Source: Deltaproteobacteria bacterium (GTDB lineage: Bacteria; Desulfobacterota; Deferrisomatia; Deferrisomatales; JACRMM01). Taken from it: a DNA stretch of 64,000 nucleotides. The notes beneath the pieces were generated by a model. That model was not told the DNA's origin. It searched no databases and saw only the letters and a list, made by a program, of their open reading frames with translations. Positions within the stretch are counted from its first letter, which is position 1. Each line of letters begins with the position of its first letter. The stretch is taken from positions 79,293 through 143,292 of the forward strand of contig JACRMM010000014.1 in the NCBI GenBank assembly GCA_016214985.1, in the 5' to 3' direction. The translations under genes and the position numbers were made by a program. Of the stretch, positions 22,840-41,809 are shown piece by piece.

Positions 22840-22857
22840 AGAACAGTCGTTTGTTCT
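22840..22857. promoter_or_regulatory. Operator A, AGAACA-N6-TGTTCT palindrome
   Basis: AGAACAGTCGTTTGTTCT is an 18-base site with 6-base perfect arms. The identical 18 bases occur at 29214-29231 and a variant at 41792-41809, upstream of a TetR gene. It is centred 48 bases downstream of the start of the TTGACA element, where a bound repressor would block RNA polymerase. It is 132 bases before the phosphatase start. Confidence 0.8.
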
Positions 22858-22989
22858 GTCATGCGCTCCGGCCCGGCAAAGGGGTCTGCCCTCGGGCCCC
22901 CGGCGATAACCAGAGCGAACGCGGTCGGCTCTCGGGCGGCGGGGAACCACGGAACTGGCCCTCGGGGAGCTCTGCCAAGGATCGTATCG

Positions 22990-23661
22990 ATGTCGGAGCT
23001 CTATTTCGTTCGTCACGGTCAGGCGGCGTTTGGTACTGACGATTACGATCGCCTGACCGACCTCGGCATTCAACAGTCGCAGTGGATCGGGGAGTACTTC
23101 GCGGAGCGAGGTGTGCGCTTCGACCGGATTCTGACCGGTGCCCTGGTCCGTCACCGGGAGACGCTGCAGGCGATGAACGGTTCGCTTCGCTTTCGGGGCG
23201 ACGCGGAGACCGATCCGGGACTGAACGAGTTTGCCCACGAGGCGCTACGCGATGCGCACGTCGGGTCCTCTCCCGAAGCGTCTCGATCCGAAGAGGACAC
23301 CCCACAGTCCTTCTATCGTCGGCTTGAGGTCGCGCTCCATGCCTGGGCGGCCGGCACGATCGAAGCGGGGGTCGGAGAGACCTGGCAGGACTTCACGCGC
23401 CGAGTGACGACGGCGCTGCTCGGCGCGTGCGCGGGACGCGGGAGGCGCGTTCTGATCGTCAGTTCCGGCGGGCCGATGGCCGTGGCGCTTGGCACCGTGT
23501 TGGGGCTGTCCGACGCCCAGATCATCGCGTTGAGCATGCAGGTCAAGAACACGGCGTTCAGCCATTTCTACTTCGACGAGCAACGCGTGCAGCTGGCGAG
23601 CTTCAACAACATCCCCCATCTCGACCGCGCGGAGCGGCGACACGCGATTACCCTGACCTGA
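22990..23661 (+). CDS. Histidine phosphatase family protein
   Basis: The 223-residue protein is a phosphoglycerate-mutase-like histidine phosphatase: LYFVRHGQA gives the catalytic RHG (about residues 8-10), [11 protein letters not shown] supplies the second Arg/His, and a late [10 protein letters not shown] takes the place of the usual GH motif, so the second catalytic His appears to be replaced by Gly-Gly. ATG at 22990 has AAGGA upstream. It begins a three-gene operon with an ACAD11-like dehydrogenase and a kinase-fold protein. It may dephosphorylate phospho-acyl-CoA or a side product; this is inference from context. Confidence 0.85.
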
Positions 23662-23680
23662 GCAACGGGAGGAACCATCG

Positions 23681-24904
23681 ATGCGGTTCGACTATTCGGA
23701 CAAGGTAGAAGGGCTAAGGGCCCGCCTCCACCGGTTCATGGACGAGCATGTGTATCCGGCCGAAGAGGTCTGTGAGGCCCACGCCGAGCGGGCGGACGAT
23801 CGCTGGACGACTCCGCCGGTGATCGACGAGCTGAAGGCGAAGGCAAGGGCCGAGGGGTTGTGGAATCTGTTCCTGGCCGAGTCCGAGCACGGCGCCGGGC
23901 TGACCAACCTGGAATACGCCCCGCTGGCCGAGATCATGGGCCGCTCCATGATCGGCCCGGAAGTGTTCAACTGCAACGCGCCGGACACCGGCAACATGGA
24001 AGTGCTGGCCCGCTTCGGCACCGCGCAACAGAAGGAGCGGTGGCTGACGCCGCTCCTGGCTGGGGAGATTCGCTCCGGCTTCGCGATGACGGAACCGGCG
24101 GTGGCATCGAGCGATGCCACCAACATCCGGGCCTCGATCGTCCGAGACGGCGACCAATACGTCATCAACGCCCACAAGTGGTGGACGAGCGGTGCCAACG
24201 ATCCGCGGTGCAAGATCCTGATCGTCATGGGCAAGACCGATGGGTCTGCGGATCAGTACCGGCAGCAGTCGCAGATCCTCGTTCCGATCGACGCGCCGGG
24301 TGTGGAGGTGGTGCGGGCGCTGAAGGTGTTCGGAGCCGAACACCCGCCGCACGGGCACGCCGAGCTGCGTCTGACCGACGTGCGCGTACCGGCGTCGAAC
24401 CTGATCGGCGAAGAAGGGCAGGGATTCGAAATCGCCCAGGCGCGGCTGGGACCGGGTCGCATTCATCACTGCATGCGCCTGATCGGGTGCGCCCAGCGGG
24501 CGCTGGAGATGATGTGCCGGAGGGTCGAGAGCCGCGTCGCGTTCGGCAAGAAGCTGAGCGAGCAGGGTTCGATCCGGGAAGACGTCGCGCGGTCCGCGTG
24601 TGACATCGAGCAGGCGCGTCTGCTCACGCTGTGTGCGGCAGAGAGAATGGACCGCAGCTCCTACAAGGAGGCCCGCGACCTGATCGCCATGATCAAGATC
24701 GTCGCCCCCAGCATGGCCCAGCAGGTCATCGATCGCGCCATCCAGGCCCACGGGGGCGGGGGCCTGTGCCAGGACTACTTCCTCGCCGATGCCTTCGGGT
24801 ACGCTCGCTATTGCAGGATCGCCGATGGACCGGATCAGGTGCACATGATGTCGCTCGGCAAACAGCTCATCCGGCGGTACGCGACCCAGGGGGACCCTCC
24901 ATGA
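23681..24904 (+). CDS. ACAD11-like acyl-CoA dehydrogenase
   Basis: The 407-residue enzyme is an acyl-CoA dehydrogenase of the ACAD10/ACAD11/LvaC-like branch. Features are the [20 protein letters not shown]/substrate motif, [13 protein letters not shown], the [20 protein letters not shown] helix, and ADGPDQVHM in place of the usual YEGTNE segment, a hallmark of this branch. In characterised homologues the enzyme eliminates phosphate from 4-phosphoacyl-CoA made by a partner kinase. Its stop overlaps the start of just such a kinase gene (ATGA). This neighbour makes the 4-hydroxyacyl-CoA role more likely than ordinary beta-oxidation. Confidence 0.88.
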
Positions 24905-25926
24905 ACGGCAGCGTGGGCGCGTTCGACGAGGGATTCCTGGCGACTTATCTGGAGCGTCACGTCGAGGGATTCAAAGGGCCTGTGCGGGCAGAGAAGTTCA
25001 CGGGTGGGCAGTCCAACCCGACGTTTCTCTTGAGGGCTGCCTCCGGCAACTACGTGTTGCGGCGCAAGCCGCCGGGACAGCTGCTCAAGTCGGCGCACGC
25101 CGTCGACCGCGAGTACCGCGTGATGCGTGCGCTTCGAGACAGCGAGGTCCCGGTCCCCCGGGTACATCACTTGTGCGACGACGACGAGGTCGTCGGCAGC
25201 ACGTTCTTTCTCATGGATTTCGTGCCCGGGCGGGTCTTCTGGAGCGCCGCCCTCCCGGAGCTGGAACCGGCGGCCCGCGGCGCCTGTTACGACGAGATGA
25301 GCCGGGTACTGGCGGCGATCCACAGCGTGGATGTTTCGGCGGTCGGGTTGGGCGACTACGGGAGCACCGGGAACTACTACGAGCGCCAACTCAAGCGGTG
25401 GAGCCAGCAGTATCGGGCCTCGGAGACGGAAACGGTCGAAGCGATGGAAGCGCTGATGAGCTGGCTGCCGAGCCACATGCCGAAGGATGACGGCCGCGTG
25501 AGCTTGATCCATGGCGACTACCGGCTCGACAACTTCATCTTTCACCCGGAGCGATCACGCATCGTCGCGGTCGTGGACTGGGAGCTCTCGACCCTGGGCC
25601 ACCCGCTGGCCGACCTGGCCTACCAGTGCATGCAGTGGCGCATCCCCGCCGAAGGCCCACTGCCGGGCCTGGGCGACATGGATCGCGCCCGGCTCGGGCT
25701 CCCCACCGAAGAGGAGTACGTGGCGGCCTATTGCCGGCGCATGGGTCTCGAATCCGTCGCCGACTGGAGCTTCTACCTCGCCTTTGGCTTCTTCCGGTTC
25801 GCCGCCATTCTTCAAGGGGTTCTGAAACGGAGTCTGGACGGGAACGCCTCCAACGATCGAGCTCTTCAGATGGGGGCATTGGTTCGGCCGTTGGCGGTCA
25901 TGGGGTGCGGCGCGGCGCGGTTGTAA
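24901..25926 (+). CDS. Aminoglycoside-phosphotransferase-fold kinase (LvaA/ACAD10-11 kinase-like)
   Basis: The 341-residue protein has the APH fold: an N-lobe with [12 protein letters not shown] and the ATP-binding Lys in YVLRRKPPG, then catalytic loop [14 protein letters not shown] (about 201-214) and metal-binding [12 protein letters not shown]. These are the motifs of the kinase domain of ACAD10/11 and of bacterial LvaA, which phosphorylate 4-hydroxyacyl-CoA. The ATG overlaps the stop of the ACAD11-like gene by four bases, so the two subunits are probably made together. The pair likely converts 4-hydroxyacyl-CoA into a form that can enter beta-oxidation. Confidence 0.88.
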
Positions 25927-25996
25927 CGGCCCGATCCGGGCGCCTCGGTCGGCAGTCACACGGCCGGACGACGAACCTCTAACCTACGGGTGTCCC

Positions 25997-26977
25997 ATGC
26001 CGGCCATCGAAGAAGTTCTCCCGGAGCTCTTCCGAATCGAAGTTCCCCTGCCCGAGAATCCTCTACGGTCCATCAACGTGTACGTGGCGAGGGGCGCCGA
26101 GCGCTCCCTGATCGTGGACACGGGCATGAACCGCGCGGAGTGCCAAGCCGCTCTGGGCGAGGGGCTCGGCGATCTCGGCATCGACACGGGGTGCGCCGAT
26201 TTCTTCGTCACGCACCTCCACGCCGATCACATCGGGCTCGCGAAGGCGTTTGCCCGGCCGGGCGCGACGGTCTTCCTGAGCCGCCTGGATGCCGTCTGGC
26301 TCGACGCCTGGACCGGGTGGGAGACGGTCTTGCCGCTGGCCGAGGCGCACGGCGTTCCCGTCCCTGAGCTGCGGGCCGAGATCGCGTCGAACCCCAGCCT
26401 CGCGTGGGAGCAAGAATGGCTCCCAGAGGTGAGCCCGGTGGACGAAGGGCGGGTCTTCGCCGTAGGCGCCTACCGGTTCGAGTGCGTCGAGACGCCTGGA
26501 CACACACCGGGACACATGTGCCTCTACGAGCGGAAGGCGAGAGTTCTGCTCTCCGGCGACCACGTCCTCGGCGACATCAGCCCCAACATCACCGGCTGGC
26601 TTCCGGGCCGGAACCCTCTGAAGGAGTACCTCGCCAGCCTGGACAAGGCCTCCAACCTGGAGGTCGACCTGGTTCTCCCTGGGCATCGCCGGCTTTTTCG
26701 AGACCACCGGGCCCGTATCGCAGAGCTCGGGCGGCACCACCGGACGAGGCTGGACGAAGTCCTCTCTCTGCTCACCGGGCGGTCTCTCACCGCCTTCGAG
26801 CTCGCTTCACGGATGACCTGGGATCTGAAGGGGTCCTGGGCGTCCTGGCCCGTGGCCCAGAAGTGGTTTGCCACGGGGGAGGCGATCGCTCACCTGGTTT
26901 ACCTGGAGGGGGAGGGGGCCGTGACGCGAGACGAAGGGGACCGGATTGTCTTCAGCCGCAGCACGCCCGGAGGCTGA
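25997..26977 (+). CDS. Metallo-beta-lactamase-fold hydrolase with C-terminal winged helix
   Basis: The 326-residue protein has the complete MBL metal site: THLHADHIGL (about 73-82), ETPGHTPGHM, LLSGDHVLG and LPGHRRLF. The last 90 residues look like a winged helix, as in LACTB2-type and related hydrolases found near acyl-CoA genes. The substrate may be a thioester or an ester; a glyoxalase II role is also possible. It lies 70 bases after the kinase, and its ribosome binding site is weak. It is probably the last gene of the phosphatase-ACAD-kinase transcript. Confidence 0.8.
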   Translation: MPAIEEVLPELFRIEVPLPENPLRSINVYVARGAERSLIVDTGMNRAECQAALGEGLGDLGIDTGCADFFVTHLHADHIGLAKAFARPGATVFLSRLDAVWLDAWTGWETVLPLAEAHGVPVPELRAEIASNPSLAWEQEWLPEVSPVDEGRVFAVGAYRFECVETPGHTPGHMCLYERKARVLLSGDHVLGDISPNITGWLPGRNPLKEYLASLDKASNLEVDLVLPGHRRLFRDHRARIAELGRHHRTRLDEVLSLLTGRSLTAFELASRMTWDLKGSWASWPVAQKWFATGEAIAHLVYLEGEGAVTRDEGDRIVFSRSTPGG

Positions 26978-27496: not shown

Positions 27497-28348
27497 ATGA
27501 GGAAACTGTTCCTGACTGCCGCAGCGCTCGTTCCCCTCGTCCTGCCGGCTCTCTCGCAGGCCGACAACCTCGCGAGAGACTACCTCCCCGCCCCGCCGGG
27601 AACCAACCTCATGATCTTTTACGACTACCATGTGTCTTCCCAAGACATATACCACGACGGCGACAAGATAGACGGCGCTCCAGGAATCAGCGGAGATGTC
27701 TACATCTTCCGGCCCGTGTACTATCACAGCTACGGGTTTCTTCAGGGAGCGTCCCAAGTGCTCTTTTTCATGAAGGATGTGCAGATCGATGGAGTGGGTG
27801 AGATTTCCGGCCTTTCGGACATGCTCTTCAGCCCGACCTTCTTCCTTTGGAACAACACTGCGTCCAAGAGCTATCTCGGGTTGGTTCTCCATACCACGGT
27901 TCCCATCGGTAAGTACGACGAGGACCGAGCCGGCCTGAGCCCAGGCGAGAACGTTTGGAAGATCAAGCCGGAGCTCAATTTCTCGCAGGGTATCGGCGAC
28001 AAGCTCTATGTTGAGGTTACGGGCGCTTCGCAGTTCACCCAGAAGAACAAGGACTGGGGCGACTCGGAAAAGGAGGTCGCTCCCGCGATCACGATCGAAG
28101 CGCACGCGAGCTACGACGTCGCGAAGGCCTTGACCGTCGCGGCGAATTACTGGGCGCACTTCGGGGGTGAGACCAAGATCGACGGCGACAAGCAAGACGA
28201 CAAGTTGAACAATCACACTCTCGGCGTTTCTCTGCACTATGGTCTCGCGCCGAGCAACCAGTTGTTGGTTTCGTATCAATACGACGTGAAGGTCAAAGAG
28301 GGCCCGCAGTACCAGACGTTAGCCTTGCGTTTCCTGCACGCGTTCTGA
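27497..28348 (+). CDS. MetA-type outer-membrane channel/transporter protein
   Basis: The 283-residue product has a signal peptide (KLFLTAAALVPLVLPALSQA) and then alternating hydrophobic beta strands with a C-terminal aromatic-rich end (ALRFLHAF), the terminal Phe expected for outer-membrane barrels. The pattern (Y.HSYGFLQG, SPTFFLW, KIKPELNFSQG, SLHYGLAPSNQL) matches the phenol meta-degradation protein family (Phenol_MetA_deg), often found in aromatic and hydrophobic-compound clusters and thought to form an outer-membrane channel. GGAGGAGG precedes the ATG. Base composition is somewhat less GC-rich than its neighbours. Confidence 0.8.
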   Translation: MRKLFLTAAALVPLVLPALSQADNLARDYLPAPPGTNLMIFYDYHVSSQDIYHDGDKIDGAPGISGDVYIFRPVYYHSYGFLQGASQVLFFMKDVQIDGVGEISGLSDMLFSPTFFLWNNTASKSYLGLVLHTTVPIGKYDEDRAGLSPGENVWKIKPELNFSQGIGDKLYVEVTGASQFTQKNKDWGDSEKEVAPAITIEAHASYDVAKALTVAANYWAHFGGETKIDGDKQDDKLNNHTLGVSLHYGLAPSNQLLVSYQYDVKVKEGPQYQTLALRFLHAF

Positions 28349-28530
28349 GCGCAGGCGCGGTAGGCTCGACGGCATTGGTTTCCGTTGGTTGGGTCACTGT
28401 GAACAGCGCGAGGGTGAAAGTGAGGAGGCTCTCGCTGAAGCCAGTGAGTCTCCCGACCGGCGCACGTCCAAGGGTGTTTGTCGTCCACTGATAGGACGAC
28501 GAAGGCAACAATCACTGAAAGGAGTGTCAG

Positions 28531-28944
28531 ATGAATGCGACATCGAAGCTTTTGTTGGCAGCGCTGGTCACAGTTTTCTTGCCTCTGACCGCGCAGTGTG
28601 AAGACAAGAAGATCGAGGGCCACATTATTGGATACTACTGTGCCGTGAACAACATCGGATGCCCGGTTGACATGGAAGATCCTGTCATCGCGAACGAACG
28701 AATCTTCGTGATCAGTACGGGAGAGAAACAGTGGGTATTCGTGCCCAATGTCGACCGCGCGGTTCTGGCGAGGCACATCACGGAAATGGCTCGAGTGACG
28801 GGCGACCTGAACGAGAAATACAACTCGATTCAGGCGAAGACCCTCGAGGTGAAGAAGGGCGACACCTGGAAGATGGTGTGGTCGCAGGTGTGGGAAGACG
28901 AATTCCGAGCGAAGTTCAACGTTCCGATGGGGGCGGGTAAGTAA
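28531..28944 (+). CDS. Small exported protein of unknown function
   Basis: The 137-residue protein begins with a signal peptide (KLLLAALVTVFLPLTAQ, cleavage near Ala-Gln-Cys; a lipoprotein is possible because a Cys sits at residue 23, although the box is poor). The mature part has two more Cys in YYCAVNNIGCP, spaced to form a disulfide, and beta-strand patterns that suggest an OB-like fold. AAAGGAG lies eight bases upstream. It shares the lower GC content of the MetA-like gene and is probably co-transcribed with it, 182 bases downstream. I recognise no family. Confidence 0.7.
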   Translation: MNATSKLLLAALVTVFLPLTAQCEDKKIEGHIIGYYCAVNNIGCPVDMEDPVIANERIFVISTGEKQWVFVPNVDRAVLARHITEMARVTGDLNEKYNSIQAKTLEVKKGDTWKMVWSQVWEDEFRAKFNVPMGAGK

Positions 28945-28951
28945 AGACGGC

Positions 28952-28989
28952 GGCCGCTGCACCCTTGGCTTGACCATGGGGCAGCGGCC
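28952..28989 (+). terminator. Hairpin after small exported gene
   Basis: GGCCGCTGC and GCAGCGGCC form a perfect 9-base stem; inside, CCC-T-TGG and CCA-T-GGG extend it with one mismatch. It starts seven bases after the stop of the exported protein. No T tract follows. Confidence 0.6.
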
Positions 28990-29001
28990 TCCCGCTCCGA
29001 C

Positions 29002-29169: not shown

Positions 29170-29199
29170 TTGACACTCCGAAAACGAGGGGTGTACACC
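29170..29199 (+). promoter_or_regulatory. Promoter B of the catabolic regulon
   Basis: TTGACA (29170-29175) and TACACC (29194-29199) are separated by 18 bases, the same layout as at 22801. The -10 is weak. It would drive the main catabolic operon from the ThDP enzyme gene at 29435. Confidence 0.6.
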
Positions 29200-29213
29200 G
29201 GAACCCATAACAG

Positions 29214-29231
29214 AGAACAGTCGTTTGTTCT
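29214..29231. promoter_or_regulatory. Operator B, AGAACA-N6-TGTTCT palindrome
   Basis: These 18 bases are identical to operator A at 22840-22857, and the match extends at least two further bases on the 5' side. The site lies 14 bases after the -10 and 203 bases before the first gene. The long leader between them shows no gene. Confidence 0.8.
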
Positions 29232-29434: not shown

Positions 29435-31396
29435 ATGGCGACCAAAGTCTGGGGTCCTCAAATCCTTGTGCGTGCGCTGATGGAGGAGGGGATTCACACC
29501 AACTTCGGCATCACCGGCGGCCACATGAACAGCTTCGACGACTACTGGAGCATCTACGGCAACAAGCTGATCCACTGCCGGCACGAAGCCTCGGCAGGGT
29601 TCGCCGCCGAGGCCTACGCCAAGGTGACCGGAAAGATCGGCCTCACCCAGGCCACGGTCGGCCCGGGCGTCGCGAACCTGGTCCCTGCGATCAATCAAGC
29701 CTATCTCAGCAACACTCCGCTGATCTGTATCCTGGGGCAGACCCCCCTCGGGGATCGATACCGGAATCCCTTCCAGCCTCTCGACGGCAAGTCCCTGTAC
29801 CGGGACATCACGCGTTGGGCCCGCGAGGTGATCGAGCCCAGCACGCTGGCGACCCTCGTGCAGCAGGCGGCCCGGGACTGCATGGGGTACCCGCCGCTCC
29901 CCGTAGCCCTGGAAGTTCCCCTGAACTTCCTGGAGTTTGCCCCCCAGGCCCTTCACGACCCGACCGCGCAGGCGAACTACCGGATCGACAGGACCCACAA
30001 GAGGCCGTGGGAGCAGCCTCAACCCGTACCGAGCGACGAAGAGGTCGATTCGATCATCGGGTGGCTCGTGGAAGCCGAAAGGCCCATCGTCGTCGTCGGC
30101 CACGGCGGCCGGTGGCCGGACTGCGGAGACGCCCTGAAGGAGTTCGCGGAGCTCACACAGATCCCGATCCACCAGCGGCGGGCCTGCCGTGGGAGCGTCC
30201 CCGAGAACCATCCGCTCCACGTGGCCGGGGAAGCGCGGGGCGGCGCGTTCGCCCGGGCCGACCGCTTCCTCACGCTGGGGCTTCGCTTCGACGTGCTCGA
30301 GGCGTATGGGAATTGGGGGCGCGACAAGCGCTTCGTCCAGGTGACCGAGGCGCCTTCGGAGATCTGGTCCGAAATCACCACCGATATCGAAGCGATCGGA
30401 AACGTCAACGCCACCCTTCGCAAGCTGAGCCGGCGCATCCGGGAGAGCTACTCCGATCGGTTCCGCCAGAAGACGGCGTGGAGGGACGAGATCCTCGAGA
30501 TGAAGATCCAGGCGCACGAGAAGATGCTCAAGCGCATGGACGAGCTGAAGGGCCAATACACCCTGCCGAACCAGATCAGCCCCGACGTCTCCTCCACGCT
30601 GATCGCCGAGTACCTGCACCGGGCGGCGCCGGAGACCACGGTCATCCTGGACTCCTTCACCCTGTCGCCGTACATGAGCGAGAAGTTCCAGGCGGGCGTG
30701 ACCGGAGGCGTCTTGGACGCGGGGATCAACGGCGGCGTCGGCCACGGCATCGGCATGGGCATCGGCGCCCAGGTGGGCCGCCCCGGGAAGCCGGTCGTGT
30801 CGATCATGGGCGATGCGGGGATCGGGGCTCTCGGGGGGGACATCGAGACCGCCGTGCGGGAGCGGCTGCCGGTGGTCTACGTGGTGCACAACAACGGCGC
30901 CTGGATCGGCGGCTGGAACGCGATGTACGGCCGCGACTGGCACGGAGCACAGAATCCGCACGCGCGCGACACCGACAATGGCATGGGGACCTTGGAAGGC
31001 CGAACGCCCTACGCCAAGATGTACGAGATGATCGGGTGCCACGCCGAGACGGTGACCACGCACGACGGCATCGCGCCGGCCCTGGAACGCGCGCTGAACT
31101 CCGGAAAGCCGGCGGTGGTCGACCTCTACAGCGACCCCAACTCCTACCACACGCTGTGGGATCGCGGGACGTACGAGGGGCTCTTCTTCGTCATGCTCCA
31201 CCACCTGCCTGAGGAGATGTGGACGGGGATGGAGAGCTTCAAGGAGAGGACCCGAAAGATCATGAATGCCTTGGGGTACCCGGAATGGCCGAAGGCGCCT
31301 CGCCTGTTCCCGCCCTTCGACGAGAAGGAGGACTTCGAGTGGGTCTCCGGGCCGCCGCCCAAGTACTACAAAAAGAAGGAAGACAAGGCCGATTGA
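29435..31396 (+). CDS. ThDP-dependent enzyme, 2-hydroxyacyl-CoA lyase/oxalyl-CoA decarboxylase-like
   Basis: The 653-residue enzyme has all three parts of an acetolactate-synthase-type ThDP enzyme: the catalytic Glu51 in HCRHEASAGFAAEAYA, a central domain, and the ThDP/Mg motif GDAGIGALGGD...VVHNN near 468-498. Family members include acetolactate synthase, oxalyl-CoA decarboxylase and 2-hydroxyacyl-CoA lyase. It is about 80-100 residues longer than most, with a charged helical insert (about 330-375) and a C-terminal tail ending in a Lys-rich segment. Together with the dehydratase-like subunits downstream, a 2-hydroxyacyl-CoA lyase or synthase role (C-C bond cleavage or formation next to CoA) is the best guess. 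Confidence 0.85.
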   Translation: MATKVWGPQILVRALMEEGIHTNFGITGGHMNSFDDYWSIYGNKLIHCRHEASAGFAAEAYAKVTGKIGLTQATVGPGVANLVPAINQAYLSNTPLICILGQTPLGDRYRNPFQPLDGKSLYRDITRWAREVIEPSTLATLVQQAARDCMGYPPLPVALEVPLNFLEFAPQALHDPTAQANYRIDRTHKRPWEQPQPVPSDEEVDSIIGWLVEAERPIVVVGHGGRWPDCGDALKEFAELTQIPIHQRRACRGSVPENHPLHVAGEARGGAFARADRFLTLGLRFDVLEAYGNWGRDKRFVQVTEAPSEIWSEITTDIEAIGNVNATLRKLSRRIRESYSDRFRQKTAWRDEILEMKIQAHEKMLKRMDELKGQYTLPNQISPDVSSTLIAEYLHRAAPETTVILDSFTLSPYMSEKFQAGVTGGVLDAGINGGVGHGIGMGIGAQVGRPGKPVVSIMGDAGIGALGGDIETAVRERLPVVYVVHNNGAWIGGWNAMYGRDWHGAQNPHARDTDNGMGTLEGRTPYAKMYEMIGCHAETVTTHDGIAPALERALNSGKPAVVDLYSDPNSYHTLWDRGTYEGLFFVMLHHLPEEMWTGMESFKERTRKIMNALGYPEWPKAPRLFPPFDEKEDFEWVSGPPPKYYKKKEDKAD

Positions 31397-31448
31397 ATCC
31401 TGGGGACTTGTCCAGAACAGCCCTATCGTTCACGACAGGAGAACGTCA

Positions 31449-31676
31449 ATGCCTAAATTTCACTGCACCAAATGCAATATCGACGCGGATGTTCCTTTTG
31501 GCGGCTGGCACTGGGAAGGCAAAGAGGCCGGGAAGGAACACTTCACTCACAGGGGATACGTGATCCCCGACCCGCAGAACCCTCTTCGGCTCATCTGCAA
31601 GGACGGGTACGATCCGAAACTGTTGATGCCGATCCACTGGGAGTGCGGGGAGGTGTTCCAGTACGTGCCCGATTAG
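31449..31676 (+). CDS. 75-residue Cys-containing small protein
   Basis: The small protein begins PKFHCTKC, a CxxC knuckle, and has two further Cys (ICKDG and HWECGE), so four Cys could hold one Zn or an Fe-S cluster. The middle part is rich in Trp, Gly and His. AGGAG lies eight bases before the ATG. It sits 52 bases after the ThDP enzyme gene and about 180 bases before the BcrB-like gene, clearly inside the operon. I recognise no family. It may be an accessory subunit of one of its two large neighbours. Confidence 0.7.
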   Translation: MPKFHCTKCNIDADVPFGGWHWEGKEAGKEHFTHRGYVIPDPQNPLRLICKDGYDPKLLMPIHWECGEVFQYVPD

Positions 31677-31854
31677 GCCCGTGTCCGCCCGGCAGTCCCG
31701 CGCTGCCGGGCGGCTGCTCACAACGACGCCGCTGACGGGTTCGCAGTCGGGCAGCGCGTGGGTCCTGGTTTCCCCGAGCGGGGCGGCTCCCCAGTCCGGC
31801 ACGGAAGGGCGTCGCCGGGGAAGGATGGCTGCTAAGGTTCCAAAGGAGGATTTC

Positions 31855-33198: not shown

Positions 33199-33235
33199 CT
33201 GCGCTCTCACTCTGCATGACGAGAGAAGAAATGAG

Positions 33236-34579
33236 ATGAGACACCCTGTTGTTGCGATCGTGAAGTACGCCGACCCCTACGAATCCGTGGCTCGAGCCCT
33301 GGAACTGAGCGACGGTCTGGCGGGTCTCCGTCCGGGAGACAAGATCCTGATCAAGCCGAACTTGGTGGAGTGGGAATTCGAGCTGCCGTACCCGCCGTGG
33401 GGTGTGGTCACGACCAGTGCGGTCATGGGCGCCCTCGTGCGGATCCTGGCGGAGCGAGGGTATCGCAACCTCACGATCGGCGAAGGGACTCCTCTGCCCC
33501 ACGCAAAGGGGAAGGGCCGGAAAGTGTTCGGAGTCCTCGGCTACGAGACGCTGCGGGACAGGTATGGCGTGCAACTGGTCGATTTCGACGAGGAGACGTT
33601 CGAGGACGTGGACCTCGGCGACCTAACACTCTCTCTGGCCCGAAGAGCCCTGGAGGCCGACAAGATCATCACCGTCCCCGCCCTGAAGACCCACGGCGTC
33701 TGCCAGGTTTCCCTCGGGATCAAGAACCTGAAGGGCTGCATCAGCAGGAAGTCCAAGAAGTTCTGCCACCACCCGGAGCGGAATCTCAGCCACACGTTTC
33801 CTCACCTGCTGCAGAGACTTCCGGTGGCCCTCAACCTGATCGACGGCGTGTATGCCCTGGAACGGGGGCCGACACACAACGGGCGGGCCTACCGGAGAGA
33901 TCTCCTCGTGGCGTCGACCGACGTCTACGCGGGGGACGTCGTCGGAGCGAAACTCATCGGCCACGAGGTGGTCGACGTACCCCATTTGCAGTATTTCGGC
34001 CAGAAGGAGGGTCGCCTGGCGGACGTCGATCACATCGACGTGCGCGGCGAGTCCATGGAGGAGAACAAGGTCAGGCTCGAGTGGGACACGCCGTGGAGGG
34101 AAGACAACAGCGGACCCACTGCCTTTGACAAACTCGGGATCGCCGGTCTGTCCTTCCGGAAGCCGGACACGACCGTCTGCACGAACTGCGCCTGTGTCAT
34201 GGCCCCTTCTCTCGTCATGCTGATGTCCGCGTACAACAACGAGACCTCCGGCACCATTGAAGTCATCACGGGAAAGAAGACCGTGGCGAGAGAAGGCTTC
34301 GACAAGACCGTGCTGCTCGGACGGTGCGCAACTGCGCTGAACAAAGACAATGCGGGCATCAAGCAGCGGATCGAGCTCAATACGTGTCCTCCCGACATGC
34401 ACAAGCTGGCAGAGGCCATGCGGGAGGTAGGCGTCAACTGTGACTACGCCGTCTACGAGCAGTTTCGCCAGAAAGCGTTCAACCGGTACAAGGAGTCCGA
34501 CGGCTTCACGCTGTCGATGTATTCCGTGGCATCCGACGGTCCCTCGGCGGGGGCCGAGACCCAAACGGCAACCCGGTAA
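33236..34579 (+). CDS. DUF362 family protein
   Basis: The 447-residue protein is a DUF362 member. Family features are the opening VAIVKYADP, ILIKPNLVEW, the ALKTHGVCQVSLGIKNLKGCISR stretch (about 150-172) and the later TVCTNCACVMAPS, a compact CxxCxC motif. DUF362 proteins are often found beside redox and Fe-S enzymes; the biochemical role is mostly unknown. The CTNCAC motif could hold a metal or Fe-S cluster. The ribosome binding site is weak. It lies 38 bases after the BcrB-like gene, so it is likely part of the same enzyme system. Confidence 0.85.
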   Translation: MRHPVVAIVKYADPYESVARALELSDGLAGLRPGDKILIKPNLVEWEFELPYPPWGVVTTSAVMGALVRILAERGYRNLTIGEGTPLPHAKGKGRKVFGVLGYETLRDRYGVQLVDFDEETFEDVDLGDLTLSLARRALEADKIITVPALKTHGVCQVSLGIKNLKGCISRKSKKFCHHPERNLSHTFPHLLQRLPVALNLIDGVYALERGPTHNGRAYRRDLLVASTDVYAGDVVGAKLIGHEVVDVPHLQYFGQKEGRLADVDHIDVRGESMEENKVRLEWDTPWREDNSGPTAFDKLGIAGLSFRKPDTTVCTNCACVMAPSLVMLMSAYNNETSGTIEVITGKKTVAREGFDKTVLLGRCATALNKDNAGIKQRIELNTCPPDMHKLAEAMREVGVNCDYAVYEQFRQKAFNRYKESDGFTLSMYSVASDGPSAGAETQTATR

Positions 34580-34739
34580 GCCGGCTTTCCGTCTGCGGTG
34601 CTGCCTCGTTCGCCGGGGCAAGAGCCCGCGGTGCACCGTCGTGAACGGAGTCGGACCCGCCTCGGTGGTCATCGGGTGAACCCCAGGGTGGGGCTGCACC
34701 TGGTGCGATACCCCGGGAAACTTGAGAGGAGGAGCAGGG

Positions 34740-35951
34740 ATGGAGAACCATGAGGTCGTGATCGTATCGGCGGTTCGAACCCCGATCGGGAAGTTCGGGG
34801 GGGCACTGAAGGATTTTCGAAGCATCGACCTGGGGGCCCTGGTGATCAAAGAGTGTCTCCGCCGCGTGGGCGTCGGGCCGGAAGAGGTCGAAGAGGTCAA
34901 CTATGGCCTCTCCGTTCTCCTGGAGGCCGGGCTGGAGACGGACATCCCCGGTCGACAGGCAACGCTGTTTGCCGGCTTCCCTCCGGAGAGCATCTCGCTC
35001 ACGGTGAACCGCGCGTGCTGCTCTTCGCTTTCGGCGCTTCGGCTCGGGTACCGGGCCATTCGCTCGGGCGAGATCGACGTCGCCATGGCGGTCGGGTCGG
35101 ACAACATGGGACGGGCGCCGCACGTGGCACCGGACGCTCGGTGGGGCAAGCGGTTGGGGCACATGACCCTGACCGACCCACTTTTCGCCCTGGGGTACCC
35201 GGACTTCGCGCCCGTGGCGCGCGATGCGGGAGAGGTCGCCGTGGAACAGGGCGTCAGCCGGCAAGAGCAGGACGAGTGGGCGGTGAGGAGTCACGAGCTC
35301 TATTTTCAGGCGCACCGGCAGGGGAAGCTTGCCCTCGGGGAAGAGTTGATGGCAGTCGACGTTCTCCAGAAGAAGGGGCCGGCCGTGGCCTTCGTTCAGG
35401 ACGAGTCCCCTCGGGAAGGCACGACGGTCGAGCAACTTGGGAAGCTGCCGACGATCTACGGGAGCCCCACCGTGACCGCCGGCAACGCCCCGGGGCTGTG
35501 CACGGGGTCCACGTGCCTCCTCATGATGAGCGCCAAGAAAGCCAAGGCGATGGGGCTGACGCCTCTTGCCACCATCCTCTCCTCCGTTGCAACGGCGACC
35601 GATGCTCGACTGATCGCCACAATCCCGGCGCCTACGATCGTAAAGGCCGTGGAGAAGGCTGGCCGGAAGCTGGAGGACATGAGTCTGATCGAGATCAACG
35701 AGGCCTTTGCCGCCATGCCGCTGGTGAGCACGAAGCTCCTCGCCGCCGGCGACAGCCGGCGTCTCGAGGAGCTGCGAGCGAAGACCAACGTCAACGGCGG
35801 GTCGATCGCCATGGGGCATCCGGTCGGGGCGACCGCCCTGCGAATTACGATGACGGCGATGTACCAACTGAGGAGGCGTGGAGGAGGGTACGGCGTGGCA
35901 GCGATCTGCGGAGGCCTCGCTCAGGGCGAAGGAATCGTGATCAAGGTGTAA
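34740..35951 (+). CDS. Thiolase (acetyl-CoA acyltransferase)
   Basis: The 403-residue enzyme has canonical thiolase elements: nucleophilic Cys in NRACCSSLSAL (about 90), the NEAFA loop, GHPVGATALR with the catalytic His, and the second Cys in ICGGLAQGEG near the C-terminus. It is a much more typical thiolase than the one at 17566. It should cleave or build a 3-ketoacyl-CoA. GAGGAGG precedes the ATG by nine bases. It is followed by 3-hydroxyacyl-CoA dehydrogenase and enoyl-CoA hydratase genes, a standard beta-oxidation trio. Confidence 0.95.
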   Translation: MENHEVVIVSAVRTPIGKFGGALKDFRSIDLGALVIKECLRRVGVGPEEVEEVNYGLSVLLEAGLETDIPGRQATLFAGFPPESISLTVNRACCSSLSALRLGYRAIRSGEIDVAMAVGSDNMGRAPHVAPDARWGKRLGHMTLTDPLFALGYPDFAPVARDAGEVAVEQGVSRQEQDEWAVRSHELYFQAHRQGKLALGEELMAVDVLQKKGPAVAFVQDESPREGTTVEQLGKLPTIYGSPTVTAGNAPGLCTGSTCLLMMSAKKAKAMGLTPLATILSSVATATDARLIATIPAPTIVKAVEKAGRKLEDMSLIEINEAFAAMPLVSTKLLAAGDSRRLEELRAKTNVNGGSIAMGHPVGATALRITMTAMYQLRRRGGGYGVAAICGGLAQGEGIVIKV

Positions 35952-35988
35952 TCGGGGGGCGCGGCGAACCGCGGGCGTGGGTGTGCCT

Positions 35989-36015
35989 GTCCGCTTCGCT
36001 CCGCGGAGCGCGGAC
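35989..36015 (+). terminator. Internal hairpin between thiolase and dehydrogenase
   Basis: GTCCGC pairs with GCGGAC, and inside lies the palindrome GCTCCGCGGAGC. TGTTTC follows. It may attenuate the operon between the two halves or stabilise the upstream mRNA end. Confidence 0.4.
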
Positions 36016-36097
36016 TGTTTCTGGTGGGGTGCCCGCTTGACCGGGTCGTATCTGAGCGCCAGCGGGTTCCGAACTTGAGGGGAAAGGAAGTAAGACC

Positions 36098-36952
36098 ATG
36101 GAGATCAAACGCATCGCGGTGCTCGGCGCCGGCATCATGGGCAACGGCATCGCCCAGGTCAGTGCGGCTGCCGGGTACGAGGTGTTTCTCCGAGACGTTG
36201 AAGATCGATTCCTGCAGCGCGCGCGGGAAACGATGGAGAAGAGTCTCGATCGAATGGCCAAGAAAGGGAAGATCGCCGAGGAAGAGGTGGCGAAGATCCT
36301 GGGGAGGGTGAAGGGCACCACGGACTTCGGTGAGGCCGTCAGCGAAGCAGATCTGGTCATCGAGGCCGTTCCCGAGAATCTGGAGTTGAAGAGGTCGACG
36401 TTCAGGGATCTCGCCGGGGCCTGCCGGCCGGAGACAATCCTGGCCTCCAATACGTCCAATTTCAGCATCACGAACCTCGCTTCCGTGACAGGACGTGCCG
36501 CCAACGTGATCGGCATGCACTACTTCAACCCCCCGGCGATGATGAACCTCATCGAGGTCGTCCGCGGCCTCGATACGTCGGACGAGACCCTTCAGGTGGT
36601 GTTGGACTTTGCGGCGCGGTGTGGGAAGAAGACCGTGGTCTGCAAGGATTCGCAGGGGTTCATCACGAGCCGTATGATCAACCTGTGGCTCGTCGAGGCG
36701 GAACGGATCCTGGAGGAAGGGGTGGCGACCCGGGAGGATATCGATGCGGCCTGCCGCTTGGCCTTCAACCACCCCATGGGGCCTTTCGAATTGGCCGACT
36801 TCTCCGGGCTCGACACCAAGCTGGCCGTCGCCGACGCGATGTGCCAGATGTTCGGAGACCGGTTCCGGTCCCCCCAGACCGTGCGGAACCTGGTCTCCGC
36901 CGGATACCTGGGGAGGAAGTCCGGAAAAGGCTGGTACGACTACTCCAAGTGA
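36098..36952 (+). CDS. 3-hydroxyacyl-CoA dehydrogenase (Hbd type)
   Basis: The 284-residue product has the length of classic 3-hydroxybutyryl-CoA dehydrogenases. The NAD fold opens VLGAGIMGNGIAQV, followed by the family segments EAVPENLELK, SNTSNFSIT, HYFNPPAMMNLIEVV (with the catalytic His) and GFITSRMINLW. The C-terminal domain has NHPMGPFELADFSGLD, the typical dimer region. It oxidises 3-hydroxyacyl-CoA with NAD. GGAAAGGAAG precedes the ATG. It is distinct from the longer, more divergent dehydrogenase at 20638. Confidence 0.96.
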   Translation: MEIKRIAVLGAGIMGNGIAQVSAAAGYEVFLRDVEDRFLQRARETMEKSLDRMAKKGKIAEEEVAKILGRVKGTTDFGEAVSEADLVIEAVPENLELKRSTFRDLAGACRPETILASNTSNFSITNLASVTGRAANVIGMHYFNPPAMMNLIEVVRGLDTSDETLQVVLDFAARCGKKTVVCKDSQGFITSRMINLWLVEAERILEEGVATREDIDAACRLAFNHPMGPFELADFSGLDTKLAVADAMCQMFGDRFRSPQTVRNLVSAGYLGRKSGKGWYDYSK

Positions 36953-37063
36953 GGCCCCGTCCACGCGCGCTTCGACGAGTACCGACCGCGTGTGGAGACA
37001 TCGCTCGGTCCGACGGCACCCTCGCCGCGGGCTGAAGGTTTACGCATGGGACAGGAGGTAGAC

Positions 37064-37849
37064 GTGGAGTTCGAGACCATCATCTACGGGAAAGACGGCG
37101 GGGTTGCCACCGTCACATTCAATCGGCCTGCGCAGCTCAATGCGCTGAATATCCGGATGATCGAAGAGTTGGTGGCGGCCTTCAGCGACGTTGCTGCCGA
37201 CGACCGGGTCAGGGTTCTCGTCGTAACCGGAAACGAGAAGGCCTTCGGGGCGGGGGCCGACCTCAAGATGATCCATGGCCTTGCCACCACCGCCTCTGCT
37301 CACGCCTTCTTCACGGGCCTCCAGGGCGAGCCGTACCGGCGCCTGAGCGGCGTTGGAAAGCCGACCATTGCCGCCGTGGCCGGAATCGCCTTGGGCGGCA
37401 TGTGTGAGCTGGCTCTCGCCTGCGACCTGCGGATCGCCGCCGAGAATGCGACGTTTGGGCTTCCTGAAATCAAGTTGGGCCTGCTTCCGGGCGGGGGCGG
37501 CACCCAACGGTTGCCGAGATTGGTGGGCGCGACCAAGGCCAAAGAGATGCTCCTCACCGGCGACTCCATCGACGCACAAGAGGCGTACCGGATCGGGCTT
37601 GTGAACAAGGTGGTTCCGCTCGAGAAGCTCATGGAGGAGACCAACTCCCTGGCGCAGAAACTGGCGGCTCGCCCGCCATTTGCGCTGCAGATGATCAACA
37701 CGGCCGTCAACACAGGGCTGGACCTCTCCCTGGACGCGGCACTCGCCTACGAAGGCAGGTGCTTCGAGATGCTCTTCTCCACCGAGGATATGAAGGAAGG
37801 CGTCCAGGCGTTCATCGAAAAGAGAAAGCCCGCGTACACGGGTCGGTAG
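37064..37849 (+). CDS. Enoyl-CoA hydratase/isomerase (crotonase family)
   Basis: The 261-residue protein is a crotonase: it opens with the typical GVATVTFNRP strand, has AFGAGADLKM forming one half of the oxyanion hole, and IALGGMCELALACDLRIA forming the other. Glu in ELALACD and the later FGLPEIKLGLLPGGGGTQRLPRLVG support hydratase activity. GTG at 37064 has AGGAGG six bases upstream and gives the normal length; ATG at 37046 would add six residues. It hydrates the 2-enoyl-CoA that a dehydratase would make. Confidence 0.94.
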   Translation: MEFETIIYGKDGGVATVTFNRPAQLNALNIRMIEELVAAFSDVAADDRVRVLVVTGNEKAFGAGADLKMIHGLATTASAHAFFTGLQGEPYRRLSGVGKPTIAAVAGIALGGMCELALACDLRIAAENATFGLPEIKLGLLPGGGGTQRLPRLVGATKAKEMLLTGDSIDAQEAYRIGLVNKVVPLEKLMEETNSLAQKLAARPPFALQMINTAVNTGLDLSLDAALAYEGRCFEMLFSTEDMKEGVQAFIEKRKPAYTGR

Positions 37850-38006
37850 GGGCGCTGGGCAACCCCCCGACCGATGCTGCACTGTGCTCCGTTTCACATG
37901 TTGCGGCAGACGAGAAGCGATGGAGACGGAGGGGACGACCGGGCGCCATCGAAGGGTCCCGCTCGTGAACGTGACGTCCACCGGACCGAACAGAGGGAGA
38001 TGTGCG

Positions 38007-39164
38007 ATGCAGGGTCTTGCCAGGGCGCGAGCGGTGCTCGCCGATCGAACGAAGGTCGCACGGGACGCGCAGCAGAAGGGAACACGGGTCCTCGGCTACC
38101 TGTCCGTCCAGGTCCCGCTGGAGATCCTCACCGCCTTCGACATAGCCCCCTTCCGCATCTTCGGGGATATCCGCGAGCCGGTGACCGAGGCCGACCGAGG
38201 GCTTCCGTCCGCCTTCTGCCCCTACTTGCGAAGCGTTCTGGACCTGGCGCTGAAGGGAAGGTTCGGTTTTCTCGACGGCTTCGTGGGGAGCCACGCCTGC
38301 GATGCGCAGGAGAAGACGGTCCGGATTCTGCCATCGCTCGTCGAATTCCCGTACACGCACTACCTCGACATGCCGGCGAACATCCACGAGTCGTCGATCG
38401 AGTACTTTCGGACGCAGCTTCTCGACTTCAAAGACAGCCTCGAGAGCCTCACCGGACGGACCCTGAGCGAGCGCCGGCTCCTGGAGGCGATCGGCGCTCA
38501 CAATGACCAGCGCGGCCTGGTTCGGGAACTCTACGCGCTGAACCAGTCGGACCCTCCCGCGCTCACGGGCCGGGAGATGCTGGAGGTGATCACGGCGCTT
38601 CAGACGCTACCGGTGGACGAAGGCAATCGGTTGCTCCGGGAAGTGCTGCCGGAGGTGAAGACCAGGAGGGAGAGACCCGCCTCGAAGAGCGCCAGGCTTC
38701 TCGTGTGGGGGGGTGTTCTCCACGATCCGGTGTACATCGACGCGATAGAAGCCGCAGGAGCCAACGTGGTGATCGACGACCTGGACGAGGGCACGAGGCC
38801 GTTCACCACGGATGTCGCCGCGGAGGGAGATCTCTTCGACCACCTCGCCCGCAAGTACCTGGTCGGCGTCTACGCTGCGAGAACATTCCGTGAATCCGTC
38901 GTCGGCGAAACGGTGAAGGATCATGCGACGGACCTGCAATCGCGCTTCGGATACCTGGGCAGGTTCATCAAGGACTGGAAGGTGGACGCCGTGATCCTCC
39001 AGGCCGTGCGCTACTGCGATCCTCACGGTGCGGACGTGGTCGACCTTACGGACTACCTGGAGTCGCTGGGTGTGCCAAGCACATACGTGGAGCACAACTA
39101 CAGCGAGGGAGCCCTGGCCCCCTTGAGGACGAGGCTCGAGGCGTTCGTGGAGACGGTCTCGTAA
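38007..39164 (+). CDS. BcrC/HgdB-like 2-hydroxyacyl-CoA dehydratase subunit
   Basis: The 385-residue protein is the second COG1775 subunit, matching BcrC/HgdB in length. Three Cys in the expected places (Cys71 in AFCPYLRS, Cys98 in SHACDAQE and Cys337 in RYCDPHG) can hold a [4Fe-4S] cluster with one open iron for substrate. The segment GYLSVQVPLEILTAFDIAPFRIFG is the usual family opening. GAGGGAGA is upstream of the ATG. It should pair with the BcrB-like subunit at 31855. In most operons the two are adjacent; here thiolase, dehydrogenase and hydratase genes come between them. Confidence 0.88.
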   Translation: MQGLARARAVLADRTKVARDAQQKGTRVLGYLSVQVPLEILTAFDIAPFRIFGDIREPVTEADRGLPSAFCPYLRSVLDLALKGRFGFLDGFVGSHACDAQEKTVRILPSLVEFPYTHYLDMPANIHESSIEYFRTQLLDFKDSLESLTGRTLSERRLLEAIGAHNDQRGLVRELYALNQSDPPALTGREMLEVITALQTLPVDEGNRLLREVLPEVKTRRERPASKSARLLVWGGVLHDPVYIDAIEAAGANVVIDDLDEGTRPFTTDVAAEGDLFDHLARKYLVGVYAARTFRESVVGETVKDHATDLQSRFGYLGRFIKDWKVDAVILQAVRYCDPHGADVVDLTDYLESLGVPSTYVEHNYSEGALAPLRTRLEAFVETVS

Positions 39165-39258
39165 GGGCTCCCTTGGGCGCCCAACGCACTCCGGCTGTGC
39201 CGCCGCCCCCACTCCTGAGACGGCGCGCGGCCGCGGCTTTTCAGGAGGATCGTCCGGG

Positions 39259-40044
39259 ATGATGACGACGGCACGGTTGTCGGATCGAGTGAAGGGCGTG
39301 GCCCTTCGCGCCGGAGCCGACCTGGCCGGCATCGTGAAAGTCCGCGACCTGACGGAGCACGCCGAGGAGATCGAGCGGGCCCTCCCCGGTGCCGACAGCG
39401 TGCTCGTCCTCGGCGTGCGTCATAGCCTCGCCGCGCTCCGGTCGGGCCACAACCCGGCGGCCCAGTTCGACACCCTGTTCGCGTATGGGGAGTGCCTGCG
39501 GTCGGCGGGCACGGCGAGCCGCTTCCTCGAAGCCAAGGGGTTCCCCTCCGTGGCGTTGCCTGCGTTCATTCCACTCGATATGGGGGACATCAAGAAGGGC
39601 ATGCGGGGCGAGATCTGCTGGCGGAGAGCCGGTGTCCGGGCGGGGCTCGGCTCCTACGGGGAGAACGGACTGCTCGTGACTCGGCGCTTTGGCTCGGCCC
39701 TTCGCCTCGCGGGCCTGGTCACGACAGCAGACCTGGAGGCGGACGCGCCGCTGGAGACGGACGTCTGCGATCACTGCCTGCGCTGTGTTCGCGCGTGCCC
39801 CGAGGGCGCGCTCTTCGGTGAGGGGAGGGTCGACAAGAAGCGCTGCGGTGACCGGATCTTCCGCTACGGCTTTCGCTTTTTCGAGAGGTTCGTCGACGGG
39901 CTGCGCCGCGGACCGGAGGAATCGGCCCCGGGCGGAGCCGAGCTGCGGGAGCTCTGGCAGACGTTCATGACCGGGAATTACTACTACTGCTTCGCCTGCC
40001 AGGCCCAGTGCCCGGCATCCGATCTTCCCGACCGGCAGCCGTAG
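39259..40044 (+). CDS. QueG-like double [4Fe-4S] protein
   Basis: The 261-residue protein resembles the iron-sulfur part of epoxyqueuosine reductase and reductive-dehalogenase-type proteins. It has CDHCLRCVRACP (about residues 172-183) and a second set formed by KRCGD plus CFACQAQCP near the C-terminus, giving two [4Fe-4S] clusters. The N-terminal half (GADLAGIVKV, LVLGVRHS, GLGSYGENGLLVT) matches the QueG fold. It is shorter than QueG. Its place after the BcrC-like subunit suggests it brings low-potential electrons to the dehydratase/reductase. AGGAGG precedes the tandem ATGs. Confidence 0.82.
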   Translation: MMTTARLSDRVKGVALRAGADLAGIVKVRDLTEHAEEIERALPGADSVLVLGVRHSLAALRSGHNPAAQFDTLFAYGECLRSAGTASRFLEAKGFPSVALPAFIPLDMGDIKKGMRGEICWRRAGVRAGLGSYGENGLLVTRRFGSALRLAGLVTTADLEADAPLETDVCDHCLRCVRACPEGALFGEGRVDKKRCGDRIFRYGFRFFERFVDGLRRGPEESAPGGAELRELWQTFMTGNYYYCFACQAQCPASDLPDRQP

Positions 40045-40185
40045 CGGCGCGGCCTCGGCGGAACGAGTGACGCGTGGCGACGGGCGGAGGCGCGGAGGTC
40101 GAGGGGAAGGACAGCGGTCCCGGCGAGGGTTTCTGACGGGGGCGATCGCCCAATCAAGGGCAACTCATGGAAAGGAGAGGCGACG

Positions 40186-40953
40186 ATGGACGTGAAGAGT
40201 GTGGTAGCCGTGGTCACGGGGGGCGCATCGGGGCTCGGGGAAGCGACGGCACGGACGCTCGTCGCGGCGGGGGCGAAGGTGTCGCTCCTCGACTTGAACC
40301 AGGAGAGAGGGCAGGCCGTAGCTGCGGAGCTTGGTCCCTCCGCCATCTTCTGCAACACGGATGTGACGGACGACGGCTCCGTCCGATCCGCGATCGCCGA
40401 GACCCTCCGGGCCTTCGGCGCGATCAACGTCGCCGTCAACTGCGCGGGCGGTGGTATGCCGGCGAAGATCCTGGGAAAGGGAGGTCCGATCGACCTCGCC
40501 GCCTTCAACAAGGTCGTCCAGCTCAACCTGATGGGTACCGTCAATGTGATCCGGCTCGTGGCGGAGAAGATGCGGGACCAAGCGCCCAACGAGGAGGGCG
40601 AACGGGGCGTCATCATCAACACGGCGTCGGCTGCGGCGTTCGAGGGGCAGATTGGCCAGCCGGCGTACAGTGCCTCCAAGGCGGGCATCGTGGGGATGAC
40701 CCTGCCGATTGCGCGGGAGTTTGCCGACATCGGGATTCGCGTCGTGACGATCGCGCCTGGACTCTTCGACACTCCGCTCCTCGCGATCCTTCCGCCGGCC
40801 GTGAAGGAAGCGCTCGGCCAGTCGGTGCCCTTTCCGAAGCGTCTCGGCAGACCGTCGGAGTACGCCTCGCTGGCGAAGCACATCATCGAAAACGTCATGT
40901 TCAACGGCACGGTGCTCCGTCTGGACGGCGCGATCCGCATGGCGGCCAAGTGA
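40186..40953 (+). CDS. SDR oxidoreductase, type II 3-hydroxyacyl-CoA dehydrogenase-like
   Basis: The 255-residue enzyme is a short-chain dehydrogenase. [12 protein letters not shown] is the NAD-binding glycine motif, Asp in LLDLNQ points to NAD rather than NADP, NCAGGG is the usual NAG variant, and the triad is Ser in INTASAAA with Tyr and Lys in PAYSASKAG. The overall sequence looks like human HSD10 (HADH type II), which oxidises 3-hydroxyacyl-CoA and hydroxysteroids. AAAGGAGAGG precedes the ATG. It is the last gene of the operon, before an intrinsic terminator. Confidence 0.92.
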
Positions 40954-41010
40954 GCGGGATGCCGAAGCCGTGAAGGGCGTCCACTGACACCACGGACAAG
41001 GCAGGGATGT

Positions 41011-41062
41011 GGCTCTCCCCAAGAGGCTCGGCCGCGGCGGGGCCCTGTGGGGAGAGCCTTTT
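41011..41062 (+). terminator. Intrinsic terminator of catabolic operon
   Basis: GGCTCTCCCCA pairs perfectly with TGGGGAGAGCC (11-base stem) and is followed by TTTT. The 26-base loop contains more GC pairing. It also lies 24 bases past the stop of the convergent TetR gene and could serve both directions. Confidence 0.8.
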
Positions 41063-41086
41063 CGCGGAGGAGGCGACGGATGTGGC

Positions 41087-41731
41087 TCAGCTTTCTCTTG
41101 TCGACAGCCGCGGGCCCCTATCTACTCCCAGTGCCCTGAGGATGAATCCGGTGACTTCTTCAATCATCTGGTCGACGGAATATCGTTGCTTTAGATTCCA
41201 CCACTTCATAGGCTCAAGAAACATCATGTACTGAATCAAATTCGCGGCCATAAAAGAATCATTGATATCAAAAGATCCATGCCTTATGCCCCTTAAAAGT
41301 AATTTCTCCACGCATTCGACCATGTACGCTTCTTTGTCTAGAACTGCTTTCAACCATTCCGCTTCGAGATGGCGGCTCTCAGTCCACATGGAGCGAAGTG
41401 TGTTCTTGTTGTCGTGAATGAGGTGAAGCACATCCGAGATGAATCGCTCCAGCTGCTGGATGGCGTCTGCATCCGTCGGCTCCGCCAATTCGTTGTAAAT
41501 ATGGGCATATATACGACTAACTCCTTCGTAGAATATGTACAGAACATCGTTCTTGGAAGAGACATATTTGTATAGATAGGACAAGTTGATGCCAGAGGCT
41601 TTCGATATATCCCGCATGCTGGTTTTTTGATAGCCATACCTTCCGAACAAATCGACTACGGCATTGTAGATCTGTTCGTGCCGCTTGCTGACTAACTCCG
41701 GATTCTCAACTTGTGTTGTCACTCGATTCAT
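41087..41731 (-). CDS. TetR-family regulator (AT-rich, predicted regulon repressor)
   Basis: The 214-residue protein has an N-terminal TetR helix-turn-helix (about 17-62): IYNAVVDLFGRYGYQKTSMRDISKASGINLSYLYKYVSSKNDVL. The C-terminal domain is helical with a Met/Trp-rich last third (YMMFLEPMKWW), suggesting a hydrophobic ligand pocket. The gene is strikingly AT-rich: 41221-41280 has 20 G/C of 60, against surroundings well above half. It faces the catabolic operon. Its own promoter carries the palindrome also found before the two catabolic operons, so I infer it is the regulator that binds all three. Confidence 0.88.
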   Translation of the reverse strand: MNRVTTQVENPELVSKRHEQIYNAVVDLFGRYGYQKTSMRDISKASGINLSYLYKYVSSKNDVLYIFYEGVSRIYAHIYNELAEPTDADAIQQLERFISDVLHLIHDNKNTLRSMWTESRHLEAEWLKAVLDKEAYMVECVEKLLLRGIRHGSFDINDSFMAANLIQYMMFLEPMKWWNLKQRYSVDQMIEEVTGFILRALGVDRGPRLSTRES

Positions 41732-41791
41732 GGGCCTGCCTCAGAGACCGGAGCGCCTTGCGTGGGTGCGTGCCGGCGTGTGGGAAGGGAA

Positions 41792-41809
41792 AGAACAGAC
41801 GATTGTTCT
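41792..41809. promoter_or_regulatory. Operator C, AGAACA-N6-TGTTCT palindrome
   Basis: AGAACAGACGATTGTTCT keeps both 6-base arms of operators A and B; only the 6-base centre differs (GACGAT against GTCGTT). It lies 60 bases upstream of the TetR start, so it fits autoregulation. A central CG is shared by all three. Confidence 0.8.

Follow-up and report, generated by a model that had tools for sequence, protein, structure and literature searches.

TetR-family repressors of acyl-CoA catabolism are well described. FadR of Bacillus (YsiA-type) and FadR/PfmR of Thermus control acyl-CoA catabolic genes through palindromic operators, whereas PsrA, FadP and LiuQ repress the degradation of fatty acids or of branched-chain acyl-CoA; regulons of the latter three average 5–18 genes per genome and are known from other classes, with FadP and LiuQ confined to betaproteobacteria (PMC5343134). 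In sulfate reducers, the known acetone pathway combines a thiamine diphosphate (ThDP) enzyme with a B12-dependent mutase (PMC7888143). The locus considered here touches both themes. It lies in a 64,000-nucleotide stretch (the window) of the genome of a Deltaproteobacteria bacterium (contig JACRMM010000014.1, positions 79,293 to 143,292), in which three copies of the palindrome AGAACA-N6-TGTTCT stand before two catabolic operons and before a tetR gene. The three palindromes are predicted to serve as operators for the FadR-like TetR repressor of this locus, which would control the two operons and its own gene; comparison of sequences leads us to give this reading a probability of about 0.87. A literature search found no paper that describes this operator sequence, nor any in which anaerobic clusters of this kind are under TetR control.

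Predicted operator sites

A preliminary description of this DNA had placed the palindrome at 22840, 29214 and 41792, with the first two copies identical and the third different in its centre, and these coordinates proved exact (Table 1). The longest palindrome is that of site 3, where 8-bp arms span 22 bp (41790–41811). Base composition predicts about 0.04 exact matches per genome; the whole 5.6-Mb genome holds three, all within the cluster, and all three are intergenic and promoter-proximal. The genome-wide scan that the preliminary description had proposed thus found no random scatter of the motif, inside genes or elsewhere.

When up to two mismatches are allowed, the window contains six matches against 0.83 expected, a number reached in none of 100 shuffles. 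Its two one-mismatch copies were rejected as operators, since both lie inside open reading frames (ORFs): the copy at 8066 in ORF 7260–9014, and that at 47877 in a GGDEF gene (46919–48028). Outside the window, nine of the ten one-mismatch copies examined fall inside coding-like ORFs, and they are scattered singly. A relaxed motif was also tried as a route to extra regulon members, but the 99 two-mismatch places, compared with 66 for the reversed control, are mostly noise, and therefore no further member of the regulon is claimed.

Promoters and probable mode of control

Each copy lies just downstream of a TTGACA element, as had been noted earlier, with start-to-start distances of 39, 44 and 34 nt when read on the same strand as the controlled gene; the hexamer occurs nine times in the window, both strands counted. 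Comparison was possible with a genome of about 5 Mb from another genus of the same family (G001; the window's own genome is G000). The distance from TTGACA to the start of the site is 34–44 nt in four of five strong promoters (the three of the window and operon 2 of G001), and 27 nt at operon 1 of G001. The sites would thus lie at or just downstream of the expected transcription start, a placement that fits repression by blocking.

In the proposed mechanism, TetR would bind as a dimer to AGAACRnnCGnnYGTTCT, a short way downstream of each promoter (operon 1, operon 2 and tetR), and block transcription at initiation or in early elongation. When an intermediate of the pathway, most likely an acyl-CoA ester, binds the C-terminal domain, TetR would be released from the DNA, the catabolic cluster of about 19 kb would be induced as one unit, and TetR would limit its own level via operator 3. 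An acyl-CoA-type inducer is suggested by the class of the C-terminal domain and by the gene content.

Some TetR-family proteins activate transcription, and the weak -10 boxes at these promoters would suit an activator, or a protein that both activates and represses. The placement of the sites after TTGACA is, however, that of a roadblock, so an activating role seems unlikely and repression is the mode that we infer.

The regulator and its conservation

The putative regulator carries a TetR_N helix-turn-helix (HTH) domain (PF00440, 31.9 bits, over the gathering cut-off of 24) and a TetR_C_24 ligand domain (PF17932, 46.9 bits, over 26.4). Its best NCBIfam match is the Bacillus-type FadR equivalog NF053878 (FATransRegFadRBac), at 45.6 bits and thus far below the cut-off of 200; the PsrA model gave only 20 bits of 300. 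Matches in the PDB (3whb, 5gp9 and 3vpr) are FadR-type fatty-acid regulators. The third palindrome had been described as preceding an AT-rich tetR gene that faces the operons, and indeed tetR is convergent with operon 2 and has 46% GC against 66.5% for the window. The orthologue in G001 is likewise AT-rich (49.6% against 68.7% for its region), and the low GC content therefore appears to be an old property of the gene rather than a sign of very recent transfer. No relative turned up when the genome contigs were searched with the TetR protein, and TetR homologues of about 25–34% identity in the phylum mostly have no such palindrome upstream; GAAC/GTTC palindromes precede two of them (L019 and L030), too few cases to weigh.

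In G001 the order of the cluster is kept from the histidine phosphatase through the 4Fe-4S protein; behind this stand other acyl-CoA genes and tetR. The TetR orthologue is 75% identical, and across the HTH region 26 of 28 residues agree, with the recognition helix INLSYLYKYVSSK unchanged. Site AGAACAGGCGTACGTTCT sits 60 nt upstream of the phosphatase ATG in that genome, and site AGAACGGGCGTTCGTTCT 199 nt upstream of the ThDP-enzyme ATG (203 nt for the window equivalent). When the operon 2 promoters of the two genomes are aligned, the TTTCTTGTTGACA block, which includes TTGACA, and the palindrome emerge as conserved islands in diverged DNA. The central CG of the operator is conserved as well, and G001 contains the refined motif AGAACRnnCGnnYGTTCT exactly twice, before the first-gene orthologues of operons 1 and 2. 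A scan of 39 relatives found matches only in G000, G001 and G002, the two in G002 both inside ORFs.

A more distant comparison is offered by a Desulfobacterales genome (CP070697, L051), where relatives of the ThDP enzyme (74% identity), of HGD-D and of the enoyl-CoA hydratase occur at one locus. No operator site was found in the 22 kb scanned there and no TetR orthologue in the genome, whose best TetR relative is 29% identical and located elsewhere. Site and orthologous TetR are thus jointly present or jointly absent in all three cases examined (the window, G001 and L051). The earlier proposal that this TetR governs the 19-kb unit is thereby strengthened, as far as sequence can speak for it: sites, gene order and regulator are conserved together in G001, and binding of TetR to the sites is the probable basis of the arrangement.

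Several points weigh against this picture. The -10 elements at the three sites are weak, matching at best three of six consensus positions, and no sigma-70 pair passes a consensus scan at the three promoters; a combined sigma-70 and terminator scan likewise gave nothing above chance. The phylogenetic test is a single comparison, with the one genome that has an orthologous TetR. The R/Y and CG positions of the refined motif were picked after G001 had been seen, and the strict prior test is therefore whether AGAAC and GTTCT, the two arms, are retained at each of the two operons, which they are. Finally, the tetR promoter of G001 retains only a half-site, GGAACAAACGA, with mismatches at 5 of 18 positions (p = 0.36 on the arm positions, 0.012 on all 18), and self-regulation is therefore not strongly conserved. 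This part of the preliminary description stands in a narrower form: with operator 3 at the tetR promoter, self-control looks clear in the window genome but weak in G001.

The degenerate tetR operator of G001, together with a link between TetR and its sites that is drawn here from sequence, would also suit a different arrangement, in which another factor encoded elsewhere binds the palindromes and TetR is merely one of its targets. This is quite improbable: the confinement of the sites to this one part of the genome fits a local regulator, the annotation of 22.9–41.8 kb shows no regulator besides TetR, and G001 has retained both site and TetR, of which the Desulfobacterales locus has neither. 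That the identical 18-mers reflect chance, recent duplication without function or RNA hairpins can practically be set aside: copies 1 and 2 do agree to the base, but the flanks of the copies are unrelated, copy 3 differs in its centre, the G001 sites have diverged in the centre with arms retained, an Rfam search found no RNA element, and the chance expectation is far below the three copies present.

Genes and possible pathway of the predicted regulon

Fatty-acid-style breakdown genes follow operators 1 and 2 (Table 1), in agreement with the earlier statement that two copies precede catabolic operons. Operon 1 would extend from 22990 to about 26977, perhaps to 28944; a 519-nt gap precedes the Phenol_MetA_deg gene, because of which this gene and the small conserved one behind it may form a separate transcript. 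Operon 2 spans 29435–40953.

Table 1. Coordinates of predicted operators, promoter elements and genes of the cluster (window numbering; percentages are identities to the G001 orthologue)
Feature	Position	Strand	Remarks
TTGACA, presumed -35 of operon 1	22801–22806	+	starts 39 nt before operator 1
Operator 1 (predicted)	22840–22857	+	AGAACAGTCGTTTGTTCT; G001 counterpart AGAACAGGCGTACGTTCT
Histidine phosphatase (PF00300), first gene of operon 1	22990–23661	+	G001 homology starts at the same ATG
Acyl-CoA dehydrogenase	23681–24904	+	85%
APH/phosphotransferase family protein	24631–25926	+	longest ORF, true start probably near 24900; 79%
Metallo-beta-lactamase-fold hydrolase	25997–26977	+	80%
Phenol_MetA_deg (PF13557) protein, presumed outer-membrane channel	27497–28348	+	family match and G001 comparison
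Conserved hypothetical protein of the cluster	28531–28944	+	69%; no match in Pfam/NCBIfam searches
TTGACA, presumed -35 of operon 2	29170–29175	+	starts 44 nt before operator 2; TTTCTTGTTGACA block kept in G001
Operator 2 (predicted)	29214–29231	+	AGAACAGTCGTTTGTTCT; G001 counterpart AGAACGGGCGTTCGTTCT
ThDP enzyme, oxalyl-CoA decarboxylase / 2-hydroxyacyl-CoA lyase-like	29435–31396	+	653 aa, C-terminal extension of ~80 aa; 93%
HGD-D (PF06050) subunit 1	31681–33198	+	PDB matches 2-hydroxyisocaproyl-CoA dehydratase, BzdO, MbdO
DUF362 (PF04015) protein	33086–34579	+	profile match
Thiolase	34722–35951	+	
3-Hydroxyacyl-CoA dehydrogenase	36098–36952	+	
Enoyl-CoA hydratase	36992–37849	+	
HGD-D (PF06050) subunit 2	37884–39164	+	
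4Fe-4S protein	39259–40044	+	partial QueG-like similarity
Short-chain dehydrogenase, last gene of operon 2	40186–40953	+	not found at the corresponding position of G001
TetR-family regulator, FadR-like (PF00440 + PF17932)	41087–41731	-	214 aa, 46% GC
Operator 3 (predicted, self, tetR)	41792–41809	-	AGAACAGACGATTGTTCT on the forward strand, AGAACAATCGTCTGTTCT on the tetR strand
TTGACA, presumed -35 of tetR	41838–41843	-	starts 34 nt before operator 3 on the tetR strand

The ThDP enzyme of operon 2 has three TPP-enzyme domains; its closest solved relatives belong to the OXC/HACL group, including the 2-hydroxyisobutyryl-CoA lyase AcHACL (PMC8760513), and its nearest named relatives come from Desulfobacterales, at 74% and 70% identity. 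The acid/base glutamate of AcHACL is E493 (PMC8760513); in a phmmer alignment, gapped at this point, the corresponding stretch of the window enzyme reads AWIGGWNAMY, without a glutamate. The active-site Q128 of AcHACL appears aligned with Q114 in the same alignment, the numbering offset being inferred. Inside the HGD-D operon, the DUF362 protein (33086–34579) is conserved in G001 and is a possible Fe-S electron-transfer partner.

It is tempting, if doubtful, to read the gene content as a pathway in which the ThDP enzyme would join formyl-CoA and a ketone or aldehyde into a 2-hydroxyacyl-CoA. The benzoyl-CoA-reductase (BCR)/HGD-like pair and its Fe-S partners would dehydrate this product by a radical mechanism, yielding an enoyl-CoA that enters beta-oxidation; they would take the place of the B12 mutase known from the acetone pathway, and TetR would sense an intermediate of the route. 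No B12-dependent mutase is present among the cluster genes, and all seven genes of methylmalonyl-CoA-mutase type (PF01642) lie elsewhere in the genome, which also has 11 BcrAD_BadFG matches and appears to be that of an anaerobe in which aromatic and acyl-CoA metabolism is richly represented.

The combination of a ThDP lyase-like enzyme with two HGD-D subunits, an enoyl-CoA hydratase, a short-chain dehydrogenase and a TetR gene is a recurring module: besides window 29435–40953, it occurs on another contig of the same genome (G000:C56:54700-63300, L093), where the ThDP enzyme is 33% identical. That ThDP enzyme and HGD-D are linked more than once supports, without proving it, a route from carbonyl compound and formyl-CoA via 2-hydroxyacyl-CoA to enoyl-CoA. 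The closest HGD-D relatives found in the genome itself (64% and 59%) lie directly upstream of a BcrA/D-type activator pair (G000:C44:4500-15300, L094), with a further ThDP enzyme a few kb from the HGD-D/activator genes. An activator gene is lacking from the window cluster itself, whose HGD-D pair may therefore be activated in trans.

A second FadR-like TetR gene of the window (15381–15962) heads another acyl-CoA operon and has its own TTGACA upstream, with none of the 18-bp palindromes; a 59% relative of it ends the C56 module.

Comparison with known systems

Regulon and operator are convincingly predicted from the sequence. For an anaerobic cluster of catabolic genes that is otherwise uncharacterised, the analysis names a predicted regulator, its precise operator and the set of genes that would be controlled together. 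With one purified protein and a choice of candidate CoA esters, a direct test of the inducer becomes possible, and by way of the inducer also one of the substrate on which the ThDP-plus-dehydratase route acts.

The window TetR shares the TetR_N and TetR_C_24 architecture of Bacillus FadR and Thermus FadR/PfmR, but would control a single local cluster instead of fatty-acid genes in scattered places. Its operator sequence also differs from that of Bacillus FadR. Among catabolic loci, the closest likeness is to the ketone clusters of Desulfococcus biacutus and Desulfosarcina cetonica, in which a ThDP enzyme is likewise accompanied by dehydrogenase and thiolase genes (PMC7888143), whereas the window cluster is devoid of a B12-dependent mutase and carries the HGD-D pair. 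Both the kind of regulator and its architecture, a self-controlled local TetR regulon, are thus well known and commonplace; less ordinary is the cargo, which unites a ThDP 2-hydroxyacyl-CoA lyase-like enzyme and a BCR/2-hydroxyacyl-CoA-dehydratase-like pair with the enzymes of beta-oxidation.

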